Source: Chloroflexota bacterium (GTDB lineage: Bacteria > Chloroflexota > Anaerolineae > DUEN01). From it: DNA of 64,000 nt. Position numbers and translations under genes: made by a program. The stretch spans positions 75,598 through 139,597 of the forward strand of contig JAADGJ010000106.1 of the NCBI GenBank assembly GCA_013152435.1, in the 5' to 3' direction. The notes below the pieces were generated by a model. It saw nothing but the letters and a program-made list of their open reading frames with translations, was not told where the DNA came from and did no database searches. Of this stretch, positions 30,573-46,421 are shown in pieces. Positions within the stretch are counted from its first letter, which is position 1. Each line of letters opens with the position of its first letter.

Positions 30573-31835
30573 ATGGAAGTGAACATCGTAGAATTGGAAA
30601 CTCGGACACTGGACGAACTGCAAGAGATGGCCCGGGAGATGGGGATCACCGGCTACACTCGTCTGAAGAAGTATGATCTCATCATGCGCCTGCTGCGGGC
30701 CAACGCGGAACAGCAAGGATACATCTTCGGCGGCGGAGTATTGGAGATCGTCTCCGACGGCATCGGCTTCCTGCGCTCGGACCATCTCCTGCCCGGCCCG
30801 GAGGATGTATACGTCTCGCAATCGCAGATCCGCCGCTTTGGCCTGCGCACGGGGGACTTCGTGGTGGGGCAGGTGCGTCCCCCGAAGGAGACGGAGAAAT
30901 ACTACGGCCTGCTGAAGGTCGAGGCGGTCAACGGGCTCGATCCGGAGGTCTCCAAGCAACGCCCGCAATTCGAGCGGCTGACGCCCATCTTCCCCAATCA
31001 GCAGCTCAAGCTGGAGACCGAATCCAACATCCTGGCGACCCGCCTGATCGATCTGATCGCGCCGATCGGCCGGGGACAGCGCGGCCTCATCGTATCACCG
31101 CCCAAGGCAGGGAAGACCACCATCCTCAAGCGCATCGCCAACGGCATCACCACGAACTACAACGATATCCACCTCATGGTGGTCCTCATCGGCGAGCGTC
31201 CGGAGGAGGTCACGGACATGGATCGCTCGGTACAGGCCGAGGTGGTCAGCTCCACCTTCGACGAGCCGGTCCAGAATCACGTCCGGGTGGCGGAGATGGC
31301 TCTGGAGCGCGCCAAGCGCCTGGTGGAGATCAAGCGAGACGTCGTCATCCTGCTGGACTCGATCACCCGGCTGGCGCGAGCGTACAACCTGGTGGAGCCG
31401 CCCAGCGGCCGCACGCTCTCCGGCGGGATCGATCCGGCGGCGCTCTATCCGCCGAAGCGATTCTTCGGCGCCGCGCGCAACATCGAGGAGGGCGGCAGCC
31501 TGACCATCATCGCCACCTGTCTGGTGGACACCGGTAGCCGCATGGACGACGTCATCTACGAGGAGTTCAAGGGCACCGGCAACATGGAGCTCCACCTGAG
31601 CCGTCGCCTGGCGGAGCGCCGCATCTTCCCGGCCATCGACATCGAGCGGTCCGGCACACGCCGTGAGGAGCTCCTCCTGGATCAGGAGACGCTCAGCCGG
31701 GTGTGGACAATGCGTCGCATGCTGGACGCCCTGCGTCAGGCAGGCGAGGAGCCGATCATCCCCGTGCTGGAGCGCATGGCGCGCACCCGCAACAATCGCG
31801 AGTTCCTGGCCACACTGAACCGTGATCTCTCATGA
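30573..31835 (+). CDS. rho: Transcription termination factor Rho
   Basis: Hexameric RNA-dependent ATPase that ends transcription. The 420 residues contain the Rho N domain ([23 protein letters not shown]), the primary RNA-binding cold-shock domain ([22 protein letters not shown]), Walker A (SPPKAGKTT), Walker B ([17 protein letters not shown]) and the C-terminal RNA loops ([20 protein letters not shown]). The length matches the family, with no insertion in the N-terminal region. GAGAGGT lies just before ATG 30573. It has its own promoter and a ~345-nt leader. Intrinsic terminators downstream belong to the next unit. Confidence 0.98.
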
Positions 31836-31897
31836 GCCCACCGGCCGCCCGCCCTCGCGCCGTCATCCAGCCGACCGGCAGAGGCCATCCATCTGAG

Positions 31898-31926
31898 TTG
31901 ACATCCCATCTCCACGGTGCTATACT
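31898..31926 (+). promoter_or_regulatory. Near-consensus promoter of the cobalamin riboswitch operon
   Basis: Perfect TTGACA (31898-31903), a 17-bp spacer and TATACT (31921-31926). The start site near 31933 leads straight into the riboswitch. Confidence 0.88.
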
Positions 31927-31947
31927 CATGTCAACCGAATAACCCAC

Positions 31948-32078
31948 GGCGGCAGAGGTACCCGACGCCCGGATGCTAGGGTCTAAGGGGGGAAGCCGGT
32001 GAGAGTCCGGCGCTGTCCCGCAACTGTAATCCTGCGCCCACCGCGGCAGCAGGAGAGCCAGGTCGCCCGCCTCTGCTG
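31948..32078 (+). ncRNA. Cobalamin (AdoCbl) riboswitch aptamer
   Basis: The conserved core is clear: GGAAGCCGGTGAGAGTCC, then CTGTCCCGCAACTGTAA (31991-32029), and the B12 box AGCCAGGTCGCCCGCC at 32056-32071. The closing stem P1 pairs GCAGAGG (31952-31958) with CCTCTGC (32070-32076). Cobalamin binding should switch the downstream operon off. The platform is probably transcriptional, because a strong terminator begins 63 nt further on. This is the best evidence for what the downstream transporter carries. Confidence 0.96.
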
Positions 32079-32140
32079 AAGTTCTCGGCCCACCTTCGAG
32101 CGAAAGGGGGGCGGGAGAGCGACAGAAGTCGCATTTCCAA

Positions 32141-32168
32141 CCCCTTGTCGGCTCCGGCAAGGGGTTTG
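32141..32168 (+). terminator. Riboswitch expression-platform terminator
   Basis: CCCCTTG (32141-32147) pairs with CAAGGGG (32158-32164), followed by TTTGTA. It lies between the aptamer and the first gene, as expected for cobalamin-controlled termination. The matching antiterminator could not be settled by eye. Confidence 0.75.
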
Positions 32169-32180
32169 TAACGCTATGCG

Positions 32181-32214
32181 AGCTCCTCCGCCACGAAGGG
32201 TGGAGGAGCTTTTC
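32181..32214 (+). terminator. Second terminator in the riboswitch leader
   Basis: AGCTCCTCC (32181-32189) pairs with GGAGGAGCT (32202-32210), followed by TTTCT. Two terminators in series would tighten repression by cobalamin. Confidence 0.75.
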
Positions 32215-32271
32215 TCATGTTGAGGGCGCCTCCGAGAGGCCCTGTCGCTCCCGCTACGGGGAGGCCCAGAG

Positions 32272-32380
32272 GAGCGAAGCCCCCCGGAGAGGGCTTCCCG
32301 CCGCCGTCGACCTGCCGGGCCTCGGCCAGGTCCCCGTGGAAAGGCCGAGAATGACAGGTGCGGGCTGGAAAAGAGGGGAT
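32272..32380 (-). repeat. Diverged, inverted copy of the type A MITE
   Basis: Reading the minus strand, words match type A elements: CCTTTCCA..., GGCCGAGGCC and AGGTCGAC follow in the same order as in 7480-7560. It fills the space between the second terminator and the first gene of the cobalamin operon. The terminal repeats are no longer recognisable. Confidence 0.45.
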
Positions 32381-32400
32381 GGCGCCGCGAGGAGACGCGA

Positions 32401-33459
32401 GTGGAAAAGGACGGCGTAACGCTAACGAGCGAGAATCGTATGGTGAAGCGATCATTTTGGTGGGTGGTCCTTGTCCTCGCCGCGCTGGGATGGAGCCTTC
32501 CAGTCAGCTCAGGCGAGGCGCCTCCGACCACGGCCTCCGTCCGACAGGCCGCGGTCGCCAGGGCGATCACCTGGCTGCACACCCAACAGCAGGCGGATGG
32601 CTCCTTTGGCGTGCTGACCAGCACCGCCGACGTCGTGTACGGGATCGCCCTGGCCGGCGAGGACCCGTCCGATCCCGCCTGGACGCCGGCGGGGCGCAGC
32701 CTGCTGGACGCGCTGAGGGCGCTCTCCCAGACACAGGCCACCAACGCCGGGCGCATAGGCAAAGCGCTCCGGGCGCTGGGCGCTGCCGGACAAACCACGA
32801 CCGATCCCACCGTGTCGGCGCTGGTGACCAAATTGGACGCCCTTTATGACCCGTCCACCGGCCTGTATAACCCAACGCAGGGATTCTACCACGCACTGGC
32901 CGTGGAGGGGCTGGCACGGGTCGGGGCCTCTGTCCCGGCCGCGGCGATCCAGGCGCTGATCAGCCGCCAGAAGCCCGATGGTGGCTGGGGGTGGCAATTC
33001 GGCAAGCCCGAATCCGCCAGCGACGTGGATACCACCGGCCAGGTGATGCGGGCGTTGCGAGCCGCGGGCGTCCCGGCCGATCACCCGGCGATCACCAAAG
33101 CCGTAGCCTACCTGGCCGCCCGCCAACGGGAGGACGGCGGCTGGGCGTGGGGCGCGATCGCGACCACCAGCGACGGGAATGCCACGGCGATGGCCCTGGC
33201 CGGGCTGATCGCGGCCGATGTGAACCCGCTCGCCCCACCCTTTGCCAACACTCCTCCGACCGCCTTGACCTTCCTTTTGAGATTGCAGCAGCCCTCGGGG
33301 GCCTTCGCATATCTGCCCGACCAGCCCCAGGACGACTTGCTGGCCACCCTGGACATCATCCCGGCCCTAAGCCCGGGCTGGCCCGGCGATCGCTCCCTTC
33401 CCATCCGGGTACTTCTGCCCGACATCATCCGGAACCCATCCATTTCATCAGGAGGATGA
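32401..33459 (+). CDS. Secreted alpha/alpha-barrel repeat protein (prenyltransferase/squalene-oxidase-type repeats), putative cobalamin-binding alpha domain
   Basis: 352 residues with an N-terminal signal peptide (hydrophobic core at 19-34). The mature part consists of QW-like repeats: AITWLHTQQQADGSFG, ALISRQKPDGGWGW, AVAYLAARQREDGGWAWG and FLLRLQQPSGAFAY. This is the alpha6/alpha6 fold shared by terpene cyclases and the N-terminal domain of intrinsic factor and transcobalamin. The terpene cyclase catalytic DxDD is not seen. As the first gene behind the cobalamin riboswitch, and next to two DUF4430 genes, it is best read as the alpha half of a split cobalamin binder. GAGGAG lies 7 nt before GTG 32401. 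Confidence 0.75.
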   Translation: MEKDGVTLTSENRMVKRSFWWVVLVLAALGWSLPVSSGEAPPTTASVRQAAVARAITWLHTQQQADGSFGVLTSTADVVYGIALAGEDPSDPAWTPAGRSLLDALRALSQTQATNAGRIGKALRALGAAGQTTTDPTVSALVTKLDALYDPSTGLYNPTQGFYHALAVEGLARVGASVPAAAIQALISRQKPDGGWGWQFGKPESASDVDTTGQVMRALRAAGVPADHPAITKAVAYLAARQREDGGWAWGAIATTSDGNATAMALAGLIAADVNPLAPPFANTPPTALTFLLRLQQPSGAFAYLPDQPQDDLLATLDIIPALSPGWPGDRSLPIRVLLPDIIRNPSISSGG

Positions 33460-33462
33460 GAG

Positions 33463-34044
33463 ATGCGCACACTGCCTCGTCATCGGATCTACCTCGTAGC
33501 CGCCCTCGTGCTGCTGTTGCTGGCGGTCAGCAGCCTGGCCGTCGGCGCGGCCGACGGGACCAAACGCGTCGGCCTCGTCATCCGATACAGCGACGGCTCC
33601 GTCCACACCGAGGTCGTCACGGTTCCAGCCGACGCGACCACCTTCGAAGTACTGCAAGCGGCCAACATCAATCTGGTCTGGTCGGACTCCGGCTTCGGCC
33701 CCGCCGTCTGCAAGATCGGGAACGACGGATGCCCCGCCGACAACTGCTTCTGCGACCCGGCGCACTTCTGGGGATACTGGCATCTGAACGCCGCCGGCAC
33801 GGACTGGGAGAGCTCTACCGTCGGCGTGGCGGGATACACGCCCAACGACGGCGATGTGGAAGGGTTCGCCTGGACGGGGTTCGATGCGAATTACAACCCG
33901 GTGGTCAAGCCGCCCGTGTACACCTTCGCGGAGCTGCTGGCCATGGCCCAGGCGCCGGTCCAGATACCGGAGCCGACGACGCTGTTGCTGGTGGGAGGCG
34001 GCCTGGCCGGCCTGGTCGGATATGCGCGCCGCCGCCGGAGCTGA
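33463..34044 (+). CDS. DUF4430 (transcobalamin C-terminal-like) protein with PEP-CTERM anchor
   Basis: 193 residues. A signal peptide (~1-30) is followed by a DUF4430 domain: RVGLVIRYSDGSVHTEVVTV, FEVLQAANI, then a Cys cluster (AVCKIGNDGC...NCFC) and FWGYWHLN, VGVAGYTPNDGDVEG. This matches the beta domain of intrinsic factor/transcobalamin in pattern (YWxL...GVxxYxPxDG). The C-terminus is a PEP-CTERM sorting signal: PEPTT, a hydrophobic helix, then RRRR, so an exosortase would process it. GGAGG lies 7 nt before ATG 33463, and the ATG is 3 nt after the preceding stop. Confidence 0.85.
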   Translation: MRTLPRHRIYLVAALVLLLLAVSSLAVGAADGTKRVGLVIRYSDGSVHTEVVTVPADATTFEVLQAANINLVWSDSGFGPAVCKIGNDGCPADNCFCDPAHFWGYWHLNAAGTDWESSTVGVAGYTPNDGDVEGFAWTGFDANYNPVVKPPVYTFAELLAMAQAPVQIPEPTTLLLVGGGLAGLVGYARRRRS

Positions 34045-34063
34045 GGGATACAGGAGCGTGACC

Positions 34064-35341
34064 ATGAACCGATCAAGAACCTCCCTTCACCCAACGATCC
34101 GGATCGGCGCGGTCGCGCTCCTGATCCTTTTCGTCTCCCTGGTCGCCGTCGGGCCGGCCGCCACCCAGGGGGCTCCCCACCGGGTGGGCCTGGTTGTGCA
34201 ATTCCCCGACCGCACGGTCACCACTTGCGTGACCTTTGATGAGCCTGAGATCTCCGGATATGAGGTGCTGGCCCGCTCCGGCCTCAACTTCAACGCCGAC
34301 CTCACGTCGAACATGGGGGCGGCCATCTGCAGCATCGAAGACGTGGGCTGCACATATCCCGTACAGGATTGCTTCTGCCAGTGTCAGGGGGGAGATTGCC
34401 TCTACTGGTCCTACTGGCACCTACGGGACGGGGAGTGGGAGTACTCCCAGCTTGGCGCGGGCAACTACACCGTGCGGGATGGCGACGTGGAGGGATGGCG
34501 CTGGGGACAGGGAGAGATCAACCTCTCGGCCCAACCGCCGCCCGTGTATACCTTCGACGAGCTTTGCGCCGCGCCCACACCGACGGACACCCCCGTCCCG
34601 GTGCAGATCACGTTCACCGCGGACGACCAGGAGATCGACGAGGGCCAATGCACATGGATCCGATGGCAAGTCCAGGGAGCCCAGCAGGTCTTCCTGGATG
34701 GCGAAGTGGTGAGCCCTTCGGGAAACCGCCAGGTCTGCCCGGCGGTCAGCACCAGCTATCGTTTGCAGATCCAACACGCGACGGGGGAGCTGGAGCGCCT
34801 GGTCAGCGTGAAGGTGCGGCCGTCGGCCACGCAGCCGACGCCCACCTTCACGACCGCCTTCCAGGGGACCTCTCCCCTGCCAACGCCCACACCCACCACG
34901 GCGCTTCACACCACTTCGCCCCTGCCGACGCCAACCGTCGCGCCCACGCCAACGCCTCCCCCCACCCCCACATTCACGCCGACGCCCACGGAGGAGGCAA
35001 GCCCGACCTCCGTAGCGGAGTCCAGCCCTACGCCAGCCGTGCCCACGCCAACGCCTCTCCCGGCGGAGAGCGAAGAGGTGGAGCCCCAGGCGACTCCCAC
35101 GACCAAGACCATCACGACGATGCCGCTGTCGGCCGGCGGGGCGGAGGCGAGCCCCACCGCGCCCCCGGAGGAGGCGCAACCCACCCGCGGCGACACGACG
35201 GCCGGACAGCGACCGGAGGCCGTGAGCTCGCGGGTCACCCGGTCGGAGGTCCTCCGGCTGCTGGCCTTCGGGCTGGTGGGGATCTTCAGCGCGGCCGCGT
35301 TGGGAGCCGTCAGCCTGTTCCTGCGACGCCGCGAGGGATAA
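34064..35341 (+). CDS. DUF4430 surface protein with Thr-Pro stalk and C-terminal membrane anchor
   Basis: 425 residues. Signal peptide (~1-36), then a DUF4430 domain (~38-160) with the same Cys pattern as the preceding protein (AAICSIEDVGC...DCFCQC) and YWSYWHLRDGEWEYSQLGAGNY. Next come an immunoglobulin-like segment (ITFTADDQEIDEGQCTWIRW), a ~130-residue Thr/Pro/Ser stalk, and a final membrane helix ending in RRREG. It should hold a cobalamin-capture domain away from the membrane. ATG 34064 has AGGAG 7 nt upstream. It is 20 nt from its paralogue and 26 nt from ecfT. Confidence 0.85.
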   Translation: MNRSRTSLHPTIRIGAVALLILFVSLVAVGPAATQGAPHRVGLVVQFPDRTVTTCVTFDEPEISGYEVLARSGLNFNADLTSNMGAAICSIEDVGCTYPVQDCFCQCQGGDCLYWSYWHLRDGEWEYSQLGAGNYTVRDGDVEGWRWGQGEINLSAQPPPVYTFDELCAAPTPTDTPVPVQITFTADDQEIDEGQCTWIRWQVQGAQQVFLDGEVVSPSGNRQVCPAVSTSYRLQIQHATGELERLVSVKVRPSATQPTPTFTTAFQGTSPLPTPTPTTALHTTSPLPTPTVAPTPTPPPTPTFTPTPTEEASPTSVAESSPTPAVPTPTPLPAESEEVEPQATPTTKTITTMPLSAGGAEASPTAPPEEAQPTRGDTTAGQRPEAVSSRVTRSEVLRLLAFGLVGIFSAAALGAVSLFLRRREG

Positions 35342-35367: not shown

Positions 35368-36501
35368 TTGCCTGAACCCACCCGACGAACGCCTCGCTTC
35401 CACCCTTACACCTGGCTGGCCTGGCTGGCCGCAACCGCCGCGCCCGCGCTGCTCACGCGCAACCCGATCTACCTCAGCGTGCTGCTGCTGGCCGTCGGGT
35501 TGACCTACCGCACGCTGGCCCGGGAGCATCCGGAGCATCGCGGGTGGGAGTTCCTTATCCGGCTGGCGGTCCTCCTGTGGCTGTTCACGACCCTGTTCAA
35601 CGCGCTGACCGTCCACGCCGGCGCCACCGTGATCTTCCGGCTGCCCACCCGCTGGCCCGTCATCGGCGGGCCGATCACCCTGGAAGCCGCGGCATACGGC
35701 CTGGCCAGTGGGCTCAGCCTGCTGACGATCCTGGTCACGTTCATCACGTTCCACATGGCGTTGGACCCCGGACGCCTGTTACGCCTGGTGCCCGCCGCCC
35801 TCTTCCAGGCCGGCGTGGTCACCGCCATCGCCATCACCTTTGTGCCACAGATGATCCGCTCGGTCCAGGAGATCAAGGAGGCGCAGGAGATACGCGGGCA
35901 CCGCTTCCGCGGTGTGCGCGACCTGCTCCCCCTGTTCATCCCGCTGCTCACCACCGCACTGGAGCGCGCCATCCAATTGGCCGAATCCATGGAAGCGCGC
36001 GGCTTTGGCGCCTCCACGCGCCGTCGAGCGAATCGCACAGCCATCGGGGCGCTCACCCTCACGCTCCTGATTCTGCTGGCGTTTGGGCTCTTCGCATACG
36101 GGTACTGGCGCGCGTACCGATTCGAGTCCGGGCTTCTCATCTCCATCGCGCTGGGCGGACTGATCGGCATCTTCTGGGCGATCGGGCGCCAGGCGCCGCG
36201 CACGCGCTACCGCCGATGGCTCTGGCGCCCATGGGACACGCTGGTGACCACGGCCAGCCTGCTGGCCGCATCGGCGATCCTGGCCACGCGCCTCATCGAC
36301 CACGCGGCGCTGATCTACTACCCCTATCCACCCTTCGGCCTGCAGCCCGACATCCGACCCTGGCTGTGCGCTCTGATGCTCGTGCCCGCGCTTCCCGCGG
36401 CGGTTATCGCATACGGCCGGCACAAGGCGGCCCGGCACGAGCGGTCCGGCGACACCCGCCGCCATCCGCTGCGAGATGTGGCCGATGGCGTGGCCGGGTA
36501 G
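35368..36501 (+). CDS. ecfT: ECF transporter transmembrane (T) component
   Basis: About 377 residues. Hydrophobic helices at both ends flank a cytoplasmic coupling region with the paired motifs AQEIRGHRF and SMEARGFGA; these x-R-G sequences contact the EcfA ATPases. It is longer than the usual ~260 residues because of an added C-terminal membrane segment (from about residue 290). The start is TTG 35368, supported by AGGAGGG 9 nt upstream and by the spacing to the preceding stop. In an ECF complex it couples ATP hydrolysis to toppling of the S component. Confidence 0.9.
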   Translation: MPEPTRRTPRFHPYTWLAWLAATAAPALLTRNPIYLSVLLLAVGLTYRTLAREHPEHRGWEFLIRLAVLLWLFTTLFNALTVHAGATVIFRLPTRWPVIGGPITLEAAAYGLASGLSLLTILVTFITFHMALDPGRLLRLVPAALFQAGVVTAIAITFVPQMIRSVQEIKEAQEIRGHRFRGVRDLLPLFIPLLTTALERAIQLAESMEARGFGASTRRRANRTAIGALTLTLLILLAFGLFAYGYWRAYRFESGLLISIALGGLIGIFWAIGRQAPRTRYRRWLWRPWDTLVTTASLLAASAILATRLIDHAALIYYPYPPFGLQPDIRPWLCALMLVPALPAAVIAYGRHKAARHERSGDTRRHPLRDVADGVAG

Positions 36502-36531: not shown

Positions 36532-38184
36532 ATGATCACCTTCGACGAGGTCAGCTACCAATACCCTGACACCTCGCGGCCGGTGTTGCAGAACCTGTCC
36601 CTCCGCATCGAGGAGGGGGAGTTCCTCCTGGTCATCGGCCCGTCCGGCGCGGGGAAGTCCACTTTCCTGCGCTGCATCAACGGCCTGGTGCCCCACTTCT
36701 ACGGTGGCCGGTTCAGCGGGCGGATACGCGTCGCCGAGCGGGACCCAGTGGCCGTGGGGCCCCACGGCATGAGCGATCTGGTGGGATTCGTTTTTCAGGA
36801 CCCCGAGGCCCAGTTCGTGGTGGACACGGTGGAGGACGAGCTGGCCTTCGCCCCGGAGAACTTCGCCCTGCCGCAGAACCTCATGCGCAAGCGGGTGGAG
36901 GAGGTGCTGGACCAGCTGGACATCGCGCGGCTCCGATACCGTCGCGTGCATTCGCTCTCCGGCGGCGAGAGACAACGGGTGGCCATCGCCGCCGTGTTAA
37001 CGTTGCAGCCGCGCATCCTGGTGCTGGACGAGCCCACCTCCCAGCTCGACCCGCAGGCGGCCGAGGAGGTGCTGATCGCCGTGCGCCAGCTCAACGAGGA
37101 TCTGGGGCTCACGGTGATCCTATCCGAGCATCGGCTGGAGCGCGTGGTACAGTACGCCGATCGCGTGCTGTACCTTCCCGGCCAGGGCAGCCCTCCCATC
37201 CTGGGCGACCCGGAGGAGGTGTTGGCCCAGGTCGATCTGACCCCGCCGCTGGTCACGTTGGGAAAGGCCCTGGGCTGGCAGCCGCTGCCGCTCACCATCA
37301 AGGAGGGACGGCGCTTCGCCCGCCGCCTGGGCGCCCTGGGAGAGCACGCATCGCGGGCTGTCCCGCCTTCCGAGCGTAAGGACAGCCCCATCGTGGAGGC
37401 CGGAGGCGTCTGGCACACCTACGACACAACGCCCGCGCTGGCCGATGTCTCCCTGGATGTACGCCCGGGCGAGTTCGTCGCCGTGATGGGGCGAAACGGG
37501 TCCGGGAAGACGACGCTGCTCAAACACCTCGTAGGGCTGCTGAAGCCCCACCGAGGGCGGGTCGTGGTGGCCGGACTGGATACTCGCTACGTGGATACTC
37601 ACGAATTGGCCAAGCGGGTGGGATACGTGCCGCAGCATCCGGACGCGCTGCTCTTCGCCGACACGGTCGCACAAGAGCTGGCCTTCACCCGGCGCAGCCA
37701 GGGAATGCCACAGGCCCCCGACGAAGATCTCCGGCTGTTGGAGCAACTGGGCCTGGGGAGCCTGGCGGACCGGTACCCCCGCGATCTGAGCAGCGGCGAG
37801 CGACAGCGGGTGGCATTGGCCGCCGTCCTGGTCGGAGATCCCTACGTCGTCCTCCTGGATGAGCCCACGCGAGGGCTGGACTACCCGCAAAAGGAGCGCC
37901 TTGTGGAGATCCTTCAGGCGCTGCGTGCGATGGGCAAGGCCATCATCATGGCCACCCACGATGTAGAGCTGGTCGCACGGTGCGCCGACCGGGTCGTCCT
38001 GATGGCTGAGGGGCAGATCATCGTGGACGGGCCGGCCCGGGAGGTGATGTCGGACTCGCTGGTATTCGCCTCCCAGGTCAACAAGCTGTTCCGGGATCCA
38101 CGACTGGTCACGGTAGACGATGTGCTACAGGCGATCGAGCGGCGCCGGGCGGCCGAGCCAATCCCCCCGGAGATGGGACGATGA
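36532..38184 (+). CDS. Fused ECF ATPase (EcfA-EcfA', two ABC domains)
   Basis: 550 residues carrying two complete ABC ATPase domains. Domain 1 has Walker A GPSGAGKST, signature LSGGERQRVAIAA and Walker B ILVLDEPTSQLD. Domain 2 has Walker A GRNGSGKTT, signature LSSGERQRVALAA and Walker B VVLLDEPTRGLD. The typical EcfA Q-loop FQDPEAQFV is present in domain 1 and PQHPDALLF in domain 2. The fusion replaces the usual EcfA1/EcfA2 pair. Its stop overlaps the S-component start (ATGA). Confidence 0.95.
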   Translation: MITFDEVSYQYPDTSRPVLQNLSLRIEEGEFLLVIGPSGAGKSTFLRCINGLVPHFYGGRFSGRIRVAERDPVAVGPHGMSDLVGFVFQDPEAQFVVDTVEDELAFAPENFALPQNLMRKRVEEVLDQLDIARLRYRRVHSLSGGERQRVAIAAVLTLQPRILVLDEPTSQLDPQAAEEVLIAVRQLNEDLGLTVILSEHRLERVVQYADRVLYLPGQGSPPILGDPEEVLAQVDLTPPLVTLGKALGWQPLPLTIKEGRRFARRLGALGEHASRAVPPSERKDSPIVEAGGVWHTYDTTPALADVSLDVRPGEFVAVMGRNGSGKTTLLKHLVGLLKPHRGRVVVAGLDTRYVDTHELAKRVGYVPQHPDALLFADTVAQELAFTRRSQGMPQAPDEDLRLLEQLGLGSLADRYPRDLSSGERQRVALAAVLVGDPYVVLLDEPTRGLDYPQKERLVEILQALRAMGKAIIMATHDVELVARCADRVVLMAEGQIIVDGPAREVMSDSLVFASQVNKLFRDPRLVTVDDVLQAIERRRAAEPIPPEMGR

Positions 38185-39161
38185 GCCGAACCCGCCGGGA
38201 GCGCTGGCTGAACGCCGGCATCCTCGTCGCCGCCACCCTGGTCGGCGTGATCGCCTTCCTGTCCCCCTTCTTTGCGACGCCGGAGCAGACCGCCGCGCAG
38301 TCGCCCATGGCCCACGCCCAGGATGCCCCCTTCGTGCTGGGCGTCCTGGTCATCATCTGCCTGGGCGCCGTGCTGGCCAACCTGACGGCTGGCGGCATGA
38401 GCGCCAAGACCACGGCCGTGCTGGGCGTGTTGACAGCCGTGAGCGCGGCCCTGCGGGCGTTGCCAGGGCCGCAGGGCTTCTCCGCCATCTTCTTCCTCCC
38501 CATCCTGGCCGGATACACCTACGGAGCGACGTTCGGATTCCTCCTGGGGACGTTGGCGCTCCTGACCTCGGCGCTCCTGGGCGGCGGCGTGGGGCCCTGG
38601 CTGCCCTATCAGATGTTCGCCTCCGGGTGGATGGGGCTTCTCAGCGCGGGGCTCCCCCGCCGATGGCTGCGCTCACGGCCTCGTCTGGAGGTCCTCATCC
38701 TGGCCATGTGGGGCTTCCTGCTGGGGCTGATCTTCGGGGCCATCATGAACCTGTGGTTCTGGCCGTTCCTCTTTCAGCCGGGCGAATCGGCGATCTACTG
38801 GCAGCCGGGCATGACGCTGGCCGAGACGGCGCGACGCTACGCCCTCTTCTATCTGGTCACCTCTCTGGGATGGGACCTGTGGCGAGCGATAGGCAACGCC
38901 GTCCTCATCCTGGTGTTCGGACGCCCCATCCTGCGGCTCCTGCGGCGCTTCCAGCGTCGCTTCCACTTCGACGTCGTCCCCACCATCGTCGGAGATCAGA
39001 CGAGCGCGAGCCCGCCCGCAGCCGATCACTCCCTCCAGGCCCGCAGCCTATCCTACGGGCCACCCAACCATGGAAGGCCACATCTCCCGTATCCGCTCCA
39101 GATCGCCATCCGCCGCTCCCAGGGCCACCATGAGCGCGATGCGGGCCTTTGGCGCGTTTAG
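38181..39161 (+). CDS. ECF transporter substrate-binding (S) component, predicted cobalamin-specific
   Basis: 326 residues with about seven membrane helices. The region LPILAGYTYGATFGFLLGTL followed by GPWLPYQMFASGWMGLLSAG resembles cobalamin/CbrT-like S components. The N-terminus lacks a cleavable signal. Specificity is inferred from the riboswitch and the transcobalamin-like neighbours, not from binding residues. It overlaps ecfA by 4 nt (translational coupling). The last ~45 residues are low in conservation and run antisense over the end of the asparaginase gene, so the natural stop may have been lost. Confidence 0.8.
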   Translation: MSRTRRERWLNAGILVAATLVGVIAFLSPFFATPEQTAAQSPMAHAQDAPFVLGVLVIICLGAVLANLTAGGMSAKTTAVLGVLTAVSAALRALPGPQGFSAIFFLPILAGYTYGATFGFLLGTLALLTSALLGGGVGPWLPYQMFASGWMGLLSAGLPRRWLRSRPRLEVLILAMWGFLLGLIFGAIMNLWFWPFLFQPGESAIYWQPGMTLAETARRYALFYLVTSLGWDLWRAIGNAVLILVFGRPILRLLRRFQRRFHFDVVPTIVGDQTSASPPAADHSLQARSLSYGPPNHGRPHLPYPLQIAIRRSQGHHERDAGLWRV

Positions 39162-40052
39162 CTCCCCGGCGAAGAGGCACCCCCGTCGCCTGAGATCGCT
39201 GTAACACCCAGGGAAGCCGTACGGATCCCCCACGCGGCCCTGCGGCACTCGCGTCGCGATGACGACCGGCACACCCTGCCGCACGGCGTTCGTGATGGGC
39301 TCCAGCCAGGAGACGGGCACGCGGCCGCCCCCCATGGCCGCCAGCACGATCCCCTTTACCCCCCGTCCGATCAGATACTCGAACAGCTCCGGGGAGACGC
39401 CCGCCGCCAGCATCAGCAGGGCCACATCAGGCTCCAACCGCGGGCAGGACACCGGCCTCGGGGTGACCCGCTGAGCGATGTGAATCCCCACCGCGTCGAC
39501 CACGCCCAGAGGGCCGAACTGTCCCGAGCGGAAGGTGGACAGCGCCTGCGTGTGCGTCTTCGTCACGTGACGGGCGGCGTGAATCGTATCGTCCAACACG
39601 ACCAGGGTGCCCAGGCCGCGCGCCTCCGCCGAGGCGGCCACGCGAATGGCCGCGGCCAGATTCGCGGGGCCGTCGTAGGACAACTGCGAGGCGTGGCGCA
39701 TGGCGCCGGTGAACACCACCGGCTTGGGGCTGTCCAGCGTCAGGTCACAAAGCGTGGCGGTCTCCTCCAGCGTGTCCGTGCCATGCGTCACCACCACGCC
39801 GTCCACATCGGGACGAGCCAGCAGCCCGGCTACAACCTCCCGGGCAGCCCACATGGTCTCTGGGGTCATGTGTGGGCCCGGGAGATTGCAGACGGCCGTG
39901 CTCTCCAACGTCACCGGCAGATCAGGCAGGAAGCGGATCAGATCCTCCGCCTCTAACGCGGGGACGCCGCCCCCCGCCTGGGGATCATAGCGCATGGCGA
40001 TGGTGCCACCGGTGGTGACGATCGCCACATGAGGGGATTTCGTTCCTGTCAT
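39048..40052 (-). CDS. L-asparaginase
   Basis: Hydrolyses L-asparagine to aspartate and ammonia. In 334 residues both Thr active-site signatures are present: TTGGTIAMRYD near the N-terminus and VVVTHGTDTLEETA near residue 90, plus the downstream Lys region GAMRHASQLSYDG. No signal peptide is seen, so it is probably cytosolic. ATG 40052 was chosen because AGGAG lies 7 nt upstream; the region above it has no such site. The 3' end overlaps the S-component gene by 114 bp on the opposite strand. Confidence 0.93.
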   Translation of the reverse strand: MTGTKSPHVAIVTTGGTIAMRYDPQAGGGVPALEAEDLIRFLPDLPVTLESTAVCNLPGPHMTPETMWAAREVVAGLLARPDVDGVVVTHGTDTLEETATLCDLTLDSPKPVVFTGAMRHASQLSYDGPANLAAAIRVAASAEARGLGTLVVLDDTIHAARHVTKTHTQALSTFRSGQFGPLGVVDAVGIHIAQRVTPRPVSCPRLEPDVALLMLAAGVSPELFEYLIGRGVKGIVLAAMGGGRVPVSWLEPITNAVRQGVPVVIATRVPQGRVGDPYGFPGCYSDLRRRGCLFAGELNAPKARIALMVALGAADGDLERIREMWPSMVGWPVG

Positions 40053-40195
40053 CGTATGCTCCTGGTCACGGTATGAAATGATCACGATGGGGGAGCTTGA
40101 GCAACCCTGCACGTAACCGTAGACGATCGTTTTTCCACATCGGCACGATTACGCGCGATGCTACCGGGGCTTTCTGCGTTCATCGAAAGGTCTGT

Positions 40196-43850: not shown

Positions 43851-46421
43851 TCAGTTGGTGATGGTCAATGTCACAGGCTCCGTCGCATACAGCCAATATC
43901 CCCAGCCAGGCGACATGGTGTCCAGCGTGCTCTGCCCGGGGTTGGAGGGCTGATAGGACAGCCACTGATCGGTAGTGCCATCGTACGTGTATACCGCGGT
44001 GTACTTTCCAGCGATCGACGCCAGGGTGTCGGTGATCGGCCGGCTGGTCAGGGAAGGATAGCCGATCAGATTCCAGCCCGAACACAACGGGATCGAAGTG
44101 CTGGCCGGCTCGGCGCCACTGGCCTGCAACACGGCATCGGCCCCCGTGATCCGGATCCAGATCCCCCGGGTACGATCCAGCGAGGAGAGATTGGAGACAT
44201 AGCTCGGCAGCCCCACGCCATAGCGTTGCCAGCTCTCCGTGCAACCATCGTACGTGACGACCACGTCATACTTGCCCGCCAGGGAGCTCAAGGCGGTCGT
44301 CACCGGCGTGCCCGGCTCGGCCAGCGGGAGCGAGATGAGCTGCCAGCCCAGGGGCAGCGACCGCTGCATGCTCAACGGGGTCGCCGTGGGCGTCACGGTG
44401 GGCGTGGGCGTAAGCGTCGGCGTGGCCGTGGGAGTAGGGGTCGCGGTCGATGTCGGCGTGGCCGTGGGGGTCACCGTGGGCGTCGGGGTGAGGGTGGGCG
44501 TAGGCGAGGGCGTCGCGGTGGCCGTGGGCGTGGGTGTAGGCGTCGCCGTCGGCTCAGGCGGGGCAGCCATGGCGTACTGGCCAAACGTGGTGATCCCGGT
44601 CGCCGTGATCTTATTGTAGATGGTATCCAGCGTTTGGGATCCCACCAATTGCCACGCGGACGAAGCATCCGGCCGCCAATACAGCTGCAATCCCGATTCC
44701 ACCAACCCCGCGATCTCGCCGTTGGCGTAGTAGAAGATAAGCGTGGCCACGAAGTCCGTCTTGGTCGTGGTGATCTCCCACCAGACGGCCGCGGCGTTGG
44801 CGAGGTCAGCCGGCACCTCGCGATGTTTGACCACGGTCACATCGCCGGCCGTCCCGGACGAGAAGTCGATCTGTACATTGGTGCTCCCGAAGTCCGTACG
44901 GGGAGTATCGCCCCCGGGGATGGTCTGCGTCTGGCTGGCCACGGTCGTCCCATAGGAGGAGAGCAACAGATACGCCTGGCCGGCGCCATCAAAGGACTCA
45001 TGATCCTCATCCGCGCCCACCAGGAAGTCATCGAAGCTATCGCCGTCCACGTCGCCCACCATGGCCAGGGAGGCGCCCGCCCGACTCCCCACGCGCTCGC
45101 CCCAGAAGGAGGCGTCCGCGTTGGCCAGGCTGACGTTCGCCGCCCATCCGGAGGTCTTGCCCAGGATCAGGTACGCCTGCCCGGCCCCCTCGTCGGCCTC
45201 CCAGTTCTCCGGCGCGCCGATGAGGAAGTCATCCAGCCCGTCGCCGTTCACATCGCCGCCGCCGGCCAGCGCGGACCCGGCCGTGTCCCAGAAATCCTCG
45301 CCGACGTAGCTACCAGCGGCCACCGTGGCCAGGCTTTGATTGACCCCCCAGCCGGTGGCTTTGCCCAGGATGAGATAGATCCGGCCGGCGCCCTCAGGCA
45401 CCGTCACCCCATCCCCATAGCCGGTGGCGCCGATCAGAAGGTCATCGAACCCATCGCCGTTCACATCCCCCGCGCCGGCCACAGGAAGGCCGGCCGCCTC
45501 ATCCTGGGTCGCGCCGAGGAACGACGCGTCCGCATTGGCCAGGCTGACGTTCCGCTCCCAACCGCTCGTCTTGCCCAGGATCAGATACACCTTCCCCGCG
45601 CCGCTGAAGGCATCGCTGTTCTTCCAGGCGCCGATGAGGAAGTCATCCAACCCATCGCCATTCACGTCGCCCACACCGGCCACGGACTGCCCAGCCAGAT
45701 CCCCCGCGTTCTCGCCGATGAAGGACGCGTCGGCGTTGGCCAAGCTGGTATCCATCGCCCACCCGGAGGTCTTGCCCAGGATCAGATATACCTTTCCAGC
45801 CGATCCACCATAGGTCGGTGCGGCGATCAGGAAGTCGGCAAGTCCATCTCCGTTCACGTCCCCGGCCGGGGCGACGTCGAACCCGGCGCTATCCCCGAGA
45901 TTCTCCCCCCAGAACGACGCGTCCGCCGTCGACAGGCTCACATCTCGAGCCCAGCCACTGGCGCGACCGAAGATGAGGTACGCCTGTCCGGCCCCAGCCC
46001 CGGCCTCGCCATTGCTGGGAGCGCCGATCAGGAAATCGTCAAACCCGTCGCCATTCACGTCGCCCACGCCGGCCACGCTGGAGCCAGCCGCGTCGCTGGC
46101 CTGCTCGCCCAGGAATGAGGCGTCTGCGGCGGACAGGGAGAGGTCCTGCACCCACCCGGCGTCCTTGCCCAGGAACAGGTACACCTGCCCCGCGTCCGCG
46201 GCGCTCTCATCGTTCCCCGGCGCGGCGATCAGGAAGTCCGCGTAGCCATCTCCGTTCACATCCCCCGCCGCGGAGACGTCCGTCGCGGCGGCGTCGTTCA
46301 GGGCCTCGCCCCAGAAGGAGGCGCTGGCGCCTCCCAACGGCGTGTCGGGGGTATAATCGGCGATCACCATCGTCACGAATAAGCCAAGCAGCACAATGGC
46401 TGCGATCAGTTTCCGTATCAT
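43851..46421 (-). CDS. Secreted seven-repeat FG-GAP (integrin-alpha-like beta-propeller) protein
   Basis: 856 residues. A signal peptide (~1-21) is followed by seven FG-GAP repeats of about 65-70 residues (30-500). Each has a calcium-binding loop DVNGDG[FLY]xDFLIGAP; the seventh is DVDGDSFDD. Seven repeats would close one beta-propeller. A beta domain follows, then a ~70-residue Thr-Pro stalk and two copies of a C-terminal module (LGWQLISLPL / CSGWNLIGYP with YTYDG). No membrane anchor is visible at the end. It is probably an extracellular adhesion or binding protein. Its promoter is at 46593-46621. Confidence 0.88.
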   Translation of the reverse strand: MIRKLIAAIVLLGLFVTMVIADYTPDTPLGGASASFWGEALNDAAATDVSAAGDVNGDGYADFLIAAPGNDESAADAGQVYLFLGKDAGWVQDLSLSAADASFLGEQASDAAGSSVAGVGDVNGDGFDDFLIGAPSNGEAGAGAGQAYLIFGRASGWARDVSLSTADASFWGENLGDSAGFDVAPAGDVNGDGLADFLIAAPTYGGSAGKVYLILGKTSGWAMDTSLANADASFIGENAGDLAGQSVAGVGDVNGDGLDDFLIGAWKNSDAFSGAGKVYLILGKTSGWERNVSLANADASFLGATQDEAAGLPVAGAGDVNGDGFDDLLIGATGYGDGVTVPEGAGRIYLILGKATGWGVNQSLATVAAGSYVGEDFWDTAGSALAGGGDVNGDGLDDFLIGAPENWEADEGAGQAYLILGKTSGWAANVSLANADASFWGERVGSRAGASLAMVGDVDGDSFDDFLVGADEDHESFDGAGQAYLLLSSYGTTVASQTQTIPGGDTPRTDFGSTNVQIDFSSGTAGDVTVVKHREVPADLANAAAVWWEITTTKTDFVATLIFYYANGEIAGLVESGLQLYWRPDASSAWQLVGSQTLDTIYNKITATGITTFGQYAMAAPPEPTATPTPTPTATATPSPTPTLTPTPTVTPTATPTSTATPTPTATPTLTPTPTVTPTATPLSMQRSLPLGWQLISLPLAEPGTPVTTALSSLAGKYDVVVTYDGCTESWQRYGVGLPSYVSNLSSLDRTRGIWIRITGADAVLQASGAEPASTSIPLCSGWNLIGYPSLTSRPITDTLASIAGKYTAVYTYDGTTDQWLSYQPSNPGQSTLDTMSPGWGYWLYATEPVTLTITN

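Follow-up and report, generated by a model that had tools for sequence, protein, structure and literature searches.

Two adjacent genes of a Chloroflexota bacterium encode paralogous exported proteins, here called A and B, that present one and the same ligand domain on two different surface tethers. This creates a puzzle: What does the domain catch, and what does each of the two proteins do with it? We have approached the question computationally within a window, namely the whole stretch of 64,000 nt that was analyzed (Chloroflexota bacterium; Anaerolineae; DUEN01; assembly GCA_013152435.1, contig JAADGJ010000106.1, positions 75,598–139,597 of the forward strand). The answer to which we assign a probability of about 0.85 is that the pair belongs to an operon for the capture and import of corrinoids (vitamin B12), in which a split transcobalamin-like binder would feed an ECF importer (table 1). 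Most of the functional evidence comes from toroid, riboswitch, and ECF transporter, none of which figured in the finding of the preliminary description.

Table 1. Features of the operon and of its leader region (positions in the window)
Feature	Position	Strand	Evidence or remark
Promoter-like site TTGACA-17-TATACT, TG before -10	31898–31926	+	11/12 consensus matches
Cobalamin riboswitch aptamer	31939–32088	+	RF00174, 70.6 bits
Alpha/alpha toroid protein, secreted, without own membrane anchor; candidate for the alpha subunit	32440–33459	+	PF13243, 50.3 bits; PF13249, 49.7 bits
Beta protein A, with signal peptide, PEP-CTERM tail, and a transcobalamin-like beta domain containing 4 Cys	33463–34044	+	193 aa; PF07589
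Beta protein B, with signal peptide and a transcobalamin-like beta domain containing 8 Cys when the tail Cys is counted	34064–35341	+	425 aa; fold matches
EcfT (CbiQ-type) transmembrane subunit	35368–36501	+	PF02361, 41.5 bits (cut-off 25)
Fused EcfA-EcfA′ ATPase	36532–38184	+	TIGR04520, 384.7 bits (cut-off 315); TIGR04521, 367.5 bits (cut-off 330)
EcfS substrate-specific subunit, CbrT-like	38181–39161	+	PF12822, 42.7 bits (cut-off 30.7)

Structure and Distribution of the Operon

From the toroid gene onward the intergenic gaps do not exceed 30 bases, the genes for EcfS and EcfAA′ overlap by 4, and a long open reading frame (ORF) downstream of the operon, 39048–40112, runs on the opposite strand. 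EcfS, EcfT, and two EcfA modules are thus found within one operon, each above the cut-off of its family model (PF12822, PF02361, TIGR04520, and TIGR04521). The start of the toroid was picked by eye in an ORF that opens at 32401, and the searches used 32446–33459; read from its ATG the protein has, again by eye, a signal-peptide-like N-terminus, and it lacks a C-terminal helix. Elsewhere in the window, an ORF immediately upstream of the riboswitch (30573–31835, +) resembles transcription terminator Rho, and a large ORF at 43851–46421 (−), which combines repeated D-x-N-G-D-G motifs with a Thr/Pro stalk, probably encodes another surface protein, as judged by eye.

Of 400 genomes sampled from the same phylum, 80 contain the family according to a profile of six domains, and a scan of a species collection returns 12 loci in Chloroflexota and two in Geodermatophilaceae (Actinomycetota). 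The 80 loci together with the window make 81 sources, some duplicated and many cut by contig ends, among which the toroid is found in 71, EcfT in 65, EcfAA in 57, and EcfS in 44; the gene order in most loci is toroid, beta, and then the ECF genes.

Riboswitch, B12 Metabolism, and the Substrate-Specific Subunit

The RF00174 match is the sole Rfam match in the window and covers the model in full length (1–189 of 189; E 2.2e-15, gathering threshold 31.5 bits). Upstream lies a near-perfect extended sigma-70-like promoter, one such site being found against 0.1 expected from shuffles of 31800–32520; it ends 12 bases 5′ of the riboswitch, so that the aptamer would start almost at the first base of the transcript. 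A terminator 3′ of the window riboswitch was looked for and none was found.

The RNA scan covered 53 of the 80 loci and detected a cobalamin-class riboswitch in 45, which corresponds to 44 of 52 distinct loci because L058 and L080 are one genomic place. Each of them is on the strand of the operon, the distance to the first toroid or beta domain downstream being 86–584 nt (median 188), and none was found elsewhere in 700 kb. Among the eight loci without a riboswitch above threshold (L053, L054, L068, L077, L081, L085, L088, and L092), two start at or near a contig end (L053 and L088) and one has no toroid (L054).

The genome of the window, which is 95.8% complete, has 11 B12-binding domains above the cut-off, and CbiC, an enzyme of corrin-ring synthesis, was not found in it. 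Missing corrin synthesis was considered as a correlate of the family across the phylum and then dropped: CbiC occurs in 16 of the 80 genomes carrying the family versus 48 of the 400 genomes of the whole phylum sample, so the former are not depleted in it. The 16 genomes belong almost entirely to one family (G055, G089, G097, G121, G137, G201, G209, G233, G241, G277, G356, G362, G378, and G383, with G091 and G153 outside it), in which the system may therefore salvage corrinoids beside their synthesis.

As to the substrate-specific subunit, a profile of 37 EcfS relatives retrieves CbrT (6fnp) first in the PDB with an E-value of 1.7e-8, followed by FolT at 0.0068; the single EcfS sequence finds no match in the PDB. 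A FolT-family model matches 10 of the 37 relatives weakly.

Fold of the Beta Domain

A and B had been described beforehand as DUF4430 paralogues sharing a cluster of cysteines. Alignment of the two bears out the common motifs, C-x-I-x3-G-C (CKIGNDGC in A, CSIEDVGC in B), [DN]-C-F-C (NCFC and DCFC), and YWHL in both, with cores that are 43% identical. The family name needs to be qualified: The Pfam model for DUF4430, PF14478, does not match A or B and finds nothing in the window genome at E ≤ 10, and it matches only 2 of 70 family members (best E 0.1, not over the curated cut-off), but when the family is compared, profile to profile, with six true DUF4430 domains that come from elsewhere in the phylum, the probability is 80.8 (E 1.3e-5), and the fold supports the relationship as well.

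The domain of protein B (residues 35–174) was modeled by AlphaFold2 from an alignment of 70 natural sequences with a mean pLDDT of 94.4, A being tied to this model by homology, at the identity given above. With this model, ranks 1–14 of a Foldseek search against the PDB are all transcobalamin or intrinsic factor. VIA gives Z-scores of 12.5 for haptocorrin, 12.1 for intrinsic factor, and up to 12.1 for transcobalamin; matches to the B12 carriers range from 11.3 to 12.5 (rmsd 1.9–2.4 over 97–100 residues), the next unrelated one standing at 6.6. A bacterial protein from Ruminococcus, 3u7z, also scores 11.8. The model further shows strands 42–45 and 53–57 after helix 31–37, to be compared with the hairpin insert that follows the helix in the carriers. 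On the strength of the predicted structure, the fold is that of the beta domain of transcobalamin, intrinsic factor, and haptocorrin. A link in sequence between the window proteins and the vertebrate carriers was looked for by sequence and profile searches and not found, the family profile (70 members) retrieving no solved B12 carrier at E ≤ 10.

In our interpretation, A and B form a divergent, disulphide-rich branch of the superfamily to which DUF4430 belongs. Of 301 genomes of the phylum, four have true PF14478 matches, at six loci, where EcfT lies beside the DUF4430 gene in three and a toroid is present in three, which amounts to the same setting as that of the A/B family. At L129, L130, and L132 the true PF14478 proteins have a further C-terminal domain and lie beside EcfT; these make up a second lineage of such systems.

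Cysteines Gained and Lost in Pairs

For the shared cysteines, either disulphides or a ligand site for metal or corrin had been envisaged. We examined 97 beta domains (101 hits before merging identical ones), 96 of which entered the parsimony count. The cysteines are conserved in relatives, C51 being present in 95 and C65 in 90 of the 97 domains. C58 and C67 occur together in 66 domains, are both missing in 25, and leave C67 alone in 6, whereas columns 68 and 74 are both cysteine in 31 and both another residue in 66, with zero exceptions; C17 and the tail cysteine, just past the domain, are both present in 67, both absent in 23, with C17 alone in 7 and the tail cysteine alone in none. Since related rows are not independent, the tree is a better guide than such raw counts. 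Along it, columns 68 and 74 always change on the same branches (7 of 7), three changes are common to 17 and tail, 58 and 67 share two, the only tree events behind this pairing, and 51 and 65 share one, the evidence here being mainly the near-invariance of both cysteines; four mismatched pairs share none.

Gain and loss in pairs on the same branches points to disulphides and not to a metal or corrin site, for pairings 51–65, 58–67, 68–74, and 17–tail would yield the pattern observed. Of the four candidate disulphides B appears to have all and A to retain two, as it lacks C17, C68, C74, and the tail cysteine. Numbered along the 425 residues of B, the predicted pairs are 55–168, 89–103, 96–105, and 107–112.

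The Toroid and Its Fusions

Taken alone, the toroid has squalene-hopene cyclase as its best match in sequence and also, among the matches listed, in fold (Z 25.0), with transcobalamin absent from the best 50 fold matches listed. Squalene-hopene and terpene cyclases have the catalytic motif DXDD. Of 90 toroid domains, 88 lack this motif and the remaining two show DADD or DEDD in other surroundings; the window toroid has DVDT where the aligned cyclase has DVDD. Without DXDD, activity as a terpene cyclase is unlikely.

Several loci depart from the usual arrangement. The beta domain is N-terminal to the toroid in one chain in L053, L055, L057, L059, and L077; two toroids precede the beta domain in one genus (L119 and L136–L144); and in another genus (L147–L151) a single toroid precedes it, the order of vertebrate carriers, and is followed by a stalk and a membrane helix, with an EcfS-like ORF adjoining at three of these five loci. 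The fused protein of L148, modeled by AlphaFold2 with a mean pLDDT of 93.0 and a pTM of 0.82, has transcobalamin, intrinsic factor, and haptocorrin at Foldseek ranks 1–14 (E 4.3e-10 to 2.7e-7 over 437–472 columns); VIA lists no B12 carrier among its best 50 matches. Given an rmsd of about 24 Å across both domains, these are placed differently from holo-transcobalamin, and we do not claim a holo-like assembly for the model.

Two Tethers for One Domain

That the same domain is held by two different tethers, one ending in a PEP-CTERM signal and the other in a Thr-Pro stalk with a membrane helix, is sustained by the fold and by the genome. The tail of A scores 27.8 bits with PF07589 (cut-off 20.7). 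B continues after its domain with a further stretch containing two cysteines and a long tail in which Thr, Pro, and Ser abound, and it ends in a hydrophobic helix. The window genome has an exosortase (PF09721, E 3.6e-60) and eight PEP-CTERM matches above the cut-off. Among the 66 genomes in which exosortase was searched, it is present in all seven that have a PEP-CTERM beta protein versus 3 of 59 others carrying the family (59 of the 77 such genomes). The seven PEP-CTERM beta domains form a single clade (support 100/99) on a long branch (0.82) in a tree of 103 rows, comprising the 97 beta domains and six from fused relatives, and the PEP-CTERM form has a single origin.

Within the taxonomic order of the bacterium, the tandem pair is kept in three of the four genomes that were searched, the window genome included. 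In both relatives (G001 and G002) the first protein bears PEP-CTERM; the second has stalk and helix in G001, whereas the sequence read at the G002 locus stops within the stalk. The toroid of PEP-CTERM operons is unanchored, and it is plausible, therefore, that the anchored beta chains hold it at the surface; in many single-beta operons toroid and beta both have a stalk and helix. Toroid and beta proteins devoid of membrane helix and PEP-CTERM frequently end in a YLPLV-x-R-like tail (L055, L057, L058, L067, L083, L088, L094, L095, and others), which is found within the last 14 residues of 22 of 60 such ORFs versus 20 of 3992 interior 14-mers, L058/L080 being counted twice; this may be an undescribed surface-sorting tail.

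Proposed Mechanism and Alternative Explanations

A carrier-like beta fold in a B12-controlled cluster that includes an importer makes it most likely that B12 is caught outside and passed in. When B12 is scarce, the riboswitch would permit expression of the operon, and the toroid would be exported together with the two beta proteins, presumably stabilized by disulphides. Exosortase would sort A to the surface, while stalk and helix would tie B to the membrane. The beta domain would then catch B12 and the toroid close over the ligand, in the manner of the two halves of transcobalamin. The ligand would next be released to EcfS, which is CbrT-like and embedded in the membrane, and would finally be imported by means of EcfT and EcfAA′, at the expense of ATP. 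The nature of the ligand, the assembly of toroid and beta, and the hand-over to EcfS are what we infer in this scheme. When human transcobalamin is produced as separate alpha and beta chains, these are reported to assemble only upon addition of cobalamin (PMC5599065), and by analogy the separate toroid and beta chains of the window would fit a closure driven by the ligand. A fuller version of the scheme, in which toroid and disulphide-locked beta form a split, surface-anchored transcobalamin that closes only on B12 and docks to EcfS, with A and B acting as a relay, is tentative and to our mind falls somewhat short of an even chance; the relay from A to B itself, as first suggested in the preliminary description, is a conjecture. 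If true, an ECF importer would here be served by exported binding proteins dedicated to it. It could also be that there is no relay, A and B capturing different corrinoids, or A being a surface store with B alone feeding the importer. The lack in A of four cysteines of B, the long branch of the single PEP-CTERM clade, and the single-beta operons that do without A all fit this alternative, which we take seriously while giving it a little less than even odds.

Other explanations concern the substrate and the toroid. Cobalamin riboswitches also occur upstream of cobalt transporters, the EcfT of the operon is of the CbiQ family, two of the 37 EcfS relatives match a CbiM model weakly (best E 0.002), and 3u7z, so close in structure to the beta domain, is titled a putative metal binding protein; the operon might thus import cobalt or another metal and not an assembled corrinoid. 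We consider this quite unlikely in the face of an S-component that passes the PF12822 cut-off and has CbrT as its best match in the PDB, and of a beta domain that resembles B12 carriers, with cysteines in pairs and no site. Still less probable is that the conserved cysteines form a metal or cobalt-ligand site, even if the four of CxIxxxGC...CFC are near each other in sequence and the axial cobalt ligand of BtuM, as reported, is a cysteine (PMC6072759). The co-changes described above, with none shared by mismatched pairs, led us to reject such a site; moreover, operons are retained where the domain lacks both 58 and 67 (25 of 97), and the signal-peptide-like N-termini lead one to expect an oxidizing exterior. 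Equally hard to credit is a toroid that works as a secreted terpene-cyclase-like lipid enzyme with the beta proteins as its accessories, a reading suggested by its resemblance to squalene-hopene cyclase; the nearly general absence of DXDD speaks against it, and it fits poorly with export, riboswitch, ECF neighbors, and the toroid–beta fusions of relatives. Capture and import of a corrinoid is the reading that we retain.

Known Systems and Evolutionary Implications

This kind of system is already known, as a prediction. The transcobalamin-like clade of SLBB proteins in bacteria, as presented by Burroughs et al. 2007 (PMC1796856), shares with the window beta-grasp proteins that are secreted or at the surface, an alpha/alpha toroid as partner on the N- or C-terminal side, operons with a second paralogue, and neighbors of CbiO and CbiQ type, and was proposed to scavenge B12; the animal B12 carriers were proposed to derive from such bacterial proteins. 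That clade is reported from low-GC Gram-positives, planctomycetes, and some archaea, and the string "chloroflex" is absent from the accessible text of the paper, in which we saw no riboswitch or S-component evidence of the sort presented here for the Chloroflexota family. The window proteins differ from those of the clade, as far as that text describes them, in being disulphide-rich and missed by PF14478, in having toroid and beta as separate chains, and in the PEP-CTERM tether of one of them.

With vertebrate transcobalamin, intrinsic factor, and haptocorrin the family has in common the beta-domain fold, the toroid partner, and, in L147–L151, the alpha–beta order. Unlike them, it has no detectable sequence relation to these carriers, is anchored to membrane or surface, shows covarying cysteine pairs in its beta domain, and has a toroid nearer to terpene cyclases; the chains are separate in the window, and delivery would be to an ECF importer and not to a receptor. 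ECF-CbrT of Lactobacillus delbrueckii has the same ECF architecture, with CbrT as the nearest solved S-component; as described there (PMC5997447), the S-component itself binds the substrate, whereas the window adds exported candidate binders and fuses A with A′. BtuG and BtuH, lipoproteins of Bacteroides, work alike in capturing B12 at the surface for an importer (PMC6143338, PMC8941943), but by the description in these papers they are different proteins, BtuG being reported only in Bacteroidetes, with BtuB as partner (PMC6143338). Toroid and beta also match, far below cut-off, the models of SCO2321 (NF053823; window toroid 74 against 300) and SCO2322 (NF040672; B 44.9 and A 32.2 bits against 85), whose names assign no function; 58 of 70 beta members match the latter.

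We recognized no literature on such proteins in Chloroflexota, subscription papers lying mostly outside the scope of the search. As far as the literature searched goes, the novel elements are a family of Chloroflexota and Actinomycetota that Pfam misses, the evidence from riboswitch and CbrT, the pairing of the cysteines, and the form sorted by exosortase. The bacterial side of the origin of B12 carriers had been a prediction from gene context, judging from what is accessible of the paper concerned (PMC1796856). The family contributes riboswitch control at 45 of the 53 scanned loci and an S-component resembling CbrT, and it occurs naturally as one chain or as two, so that the ligand-driven assembly of a carrier of ancestral type becomes directly testable. 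A likely function can also be offered for two unnamed families, those resembling SCO2321 and SCO2322, and, if our interpretation is true, ECF importers would be shown to use exported binding proteins.
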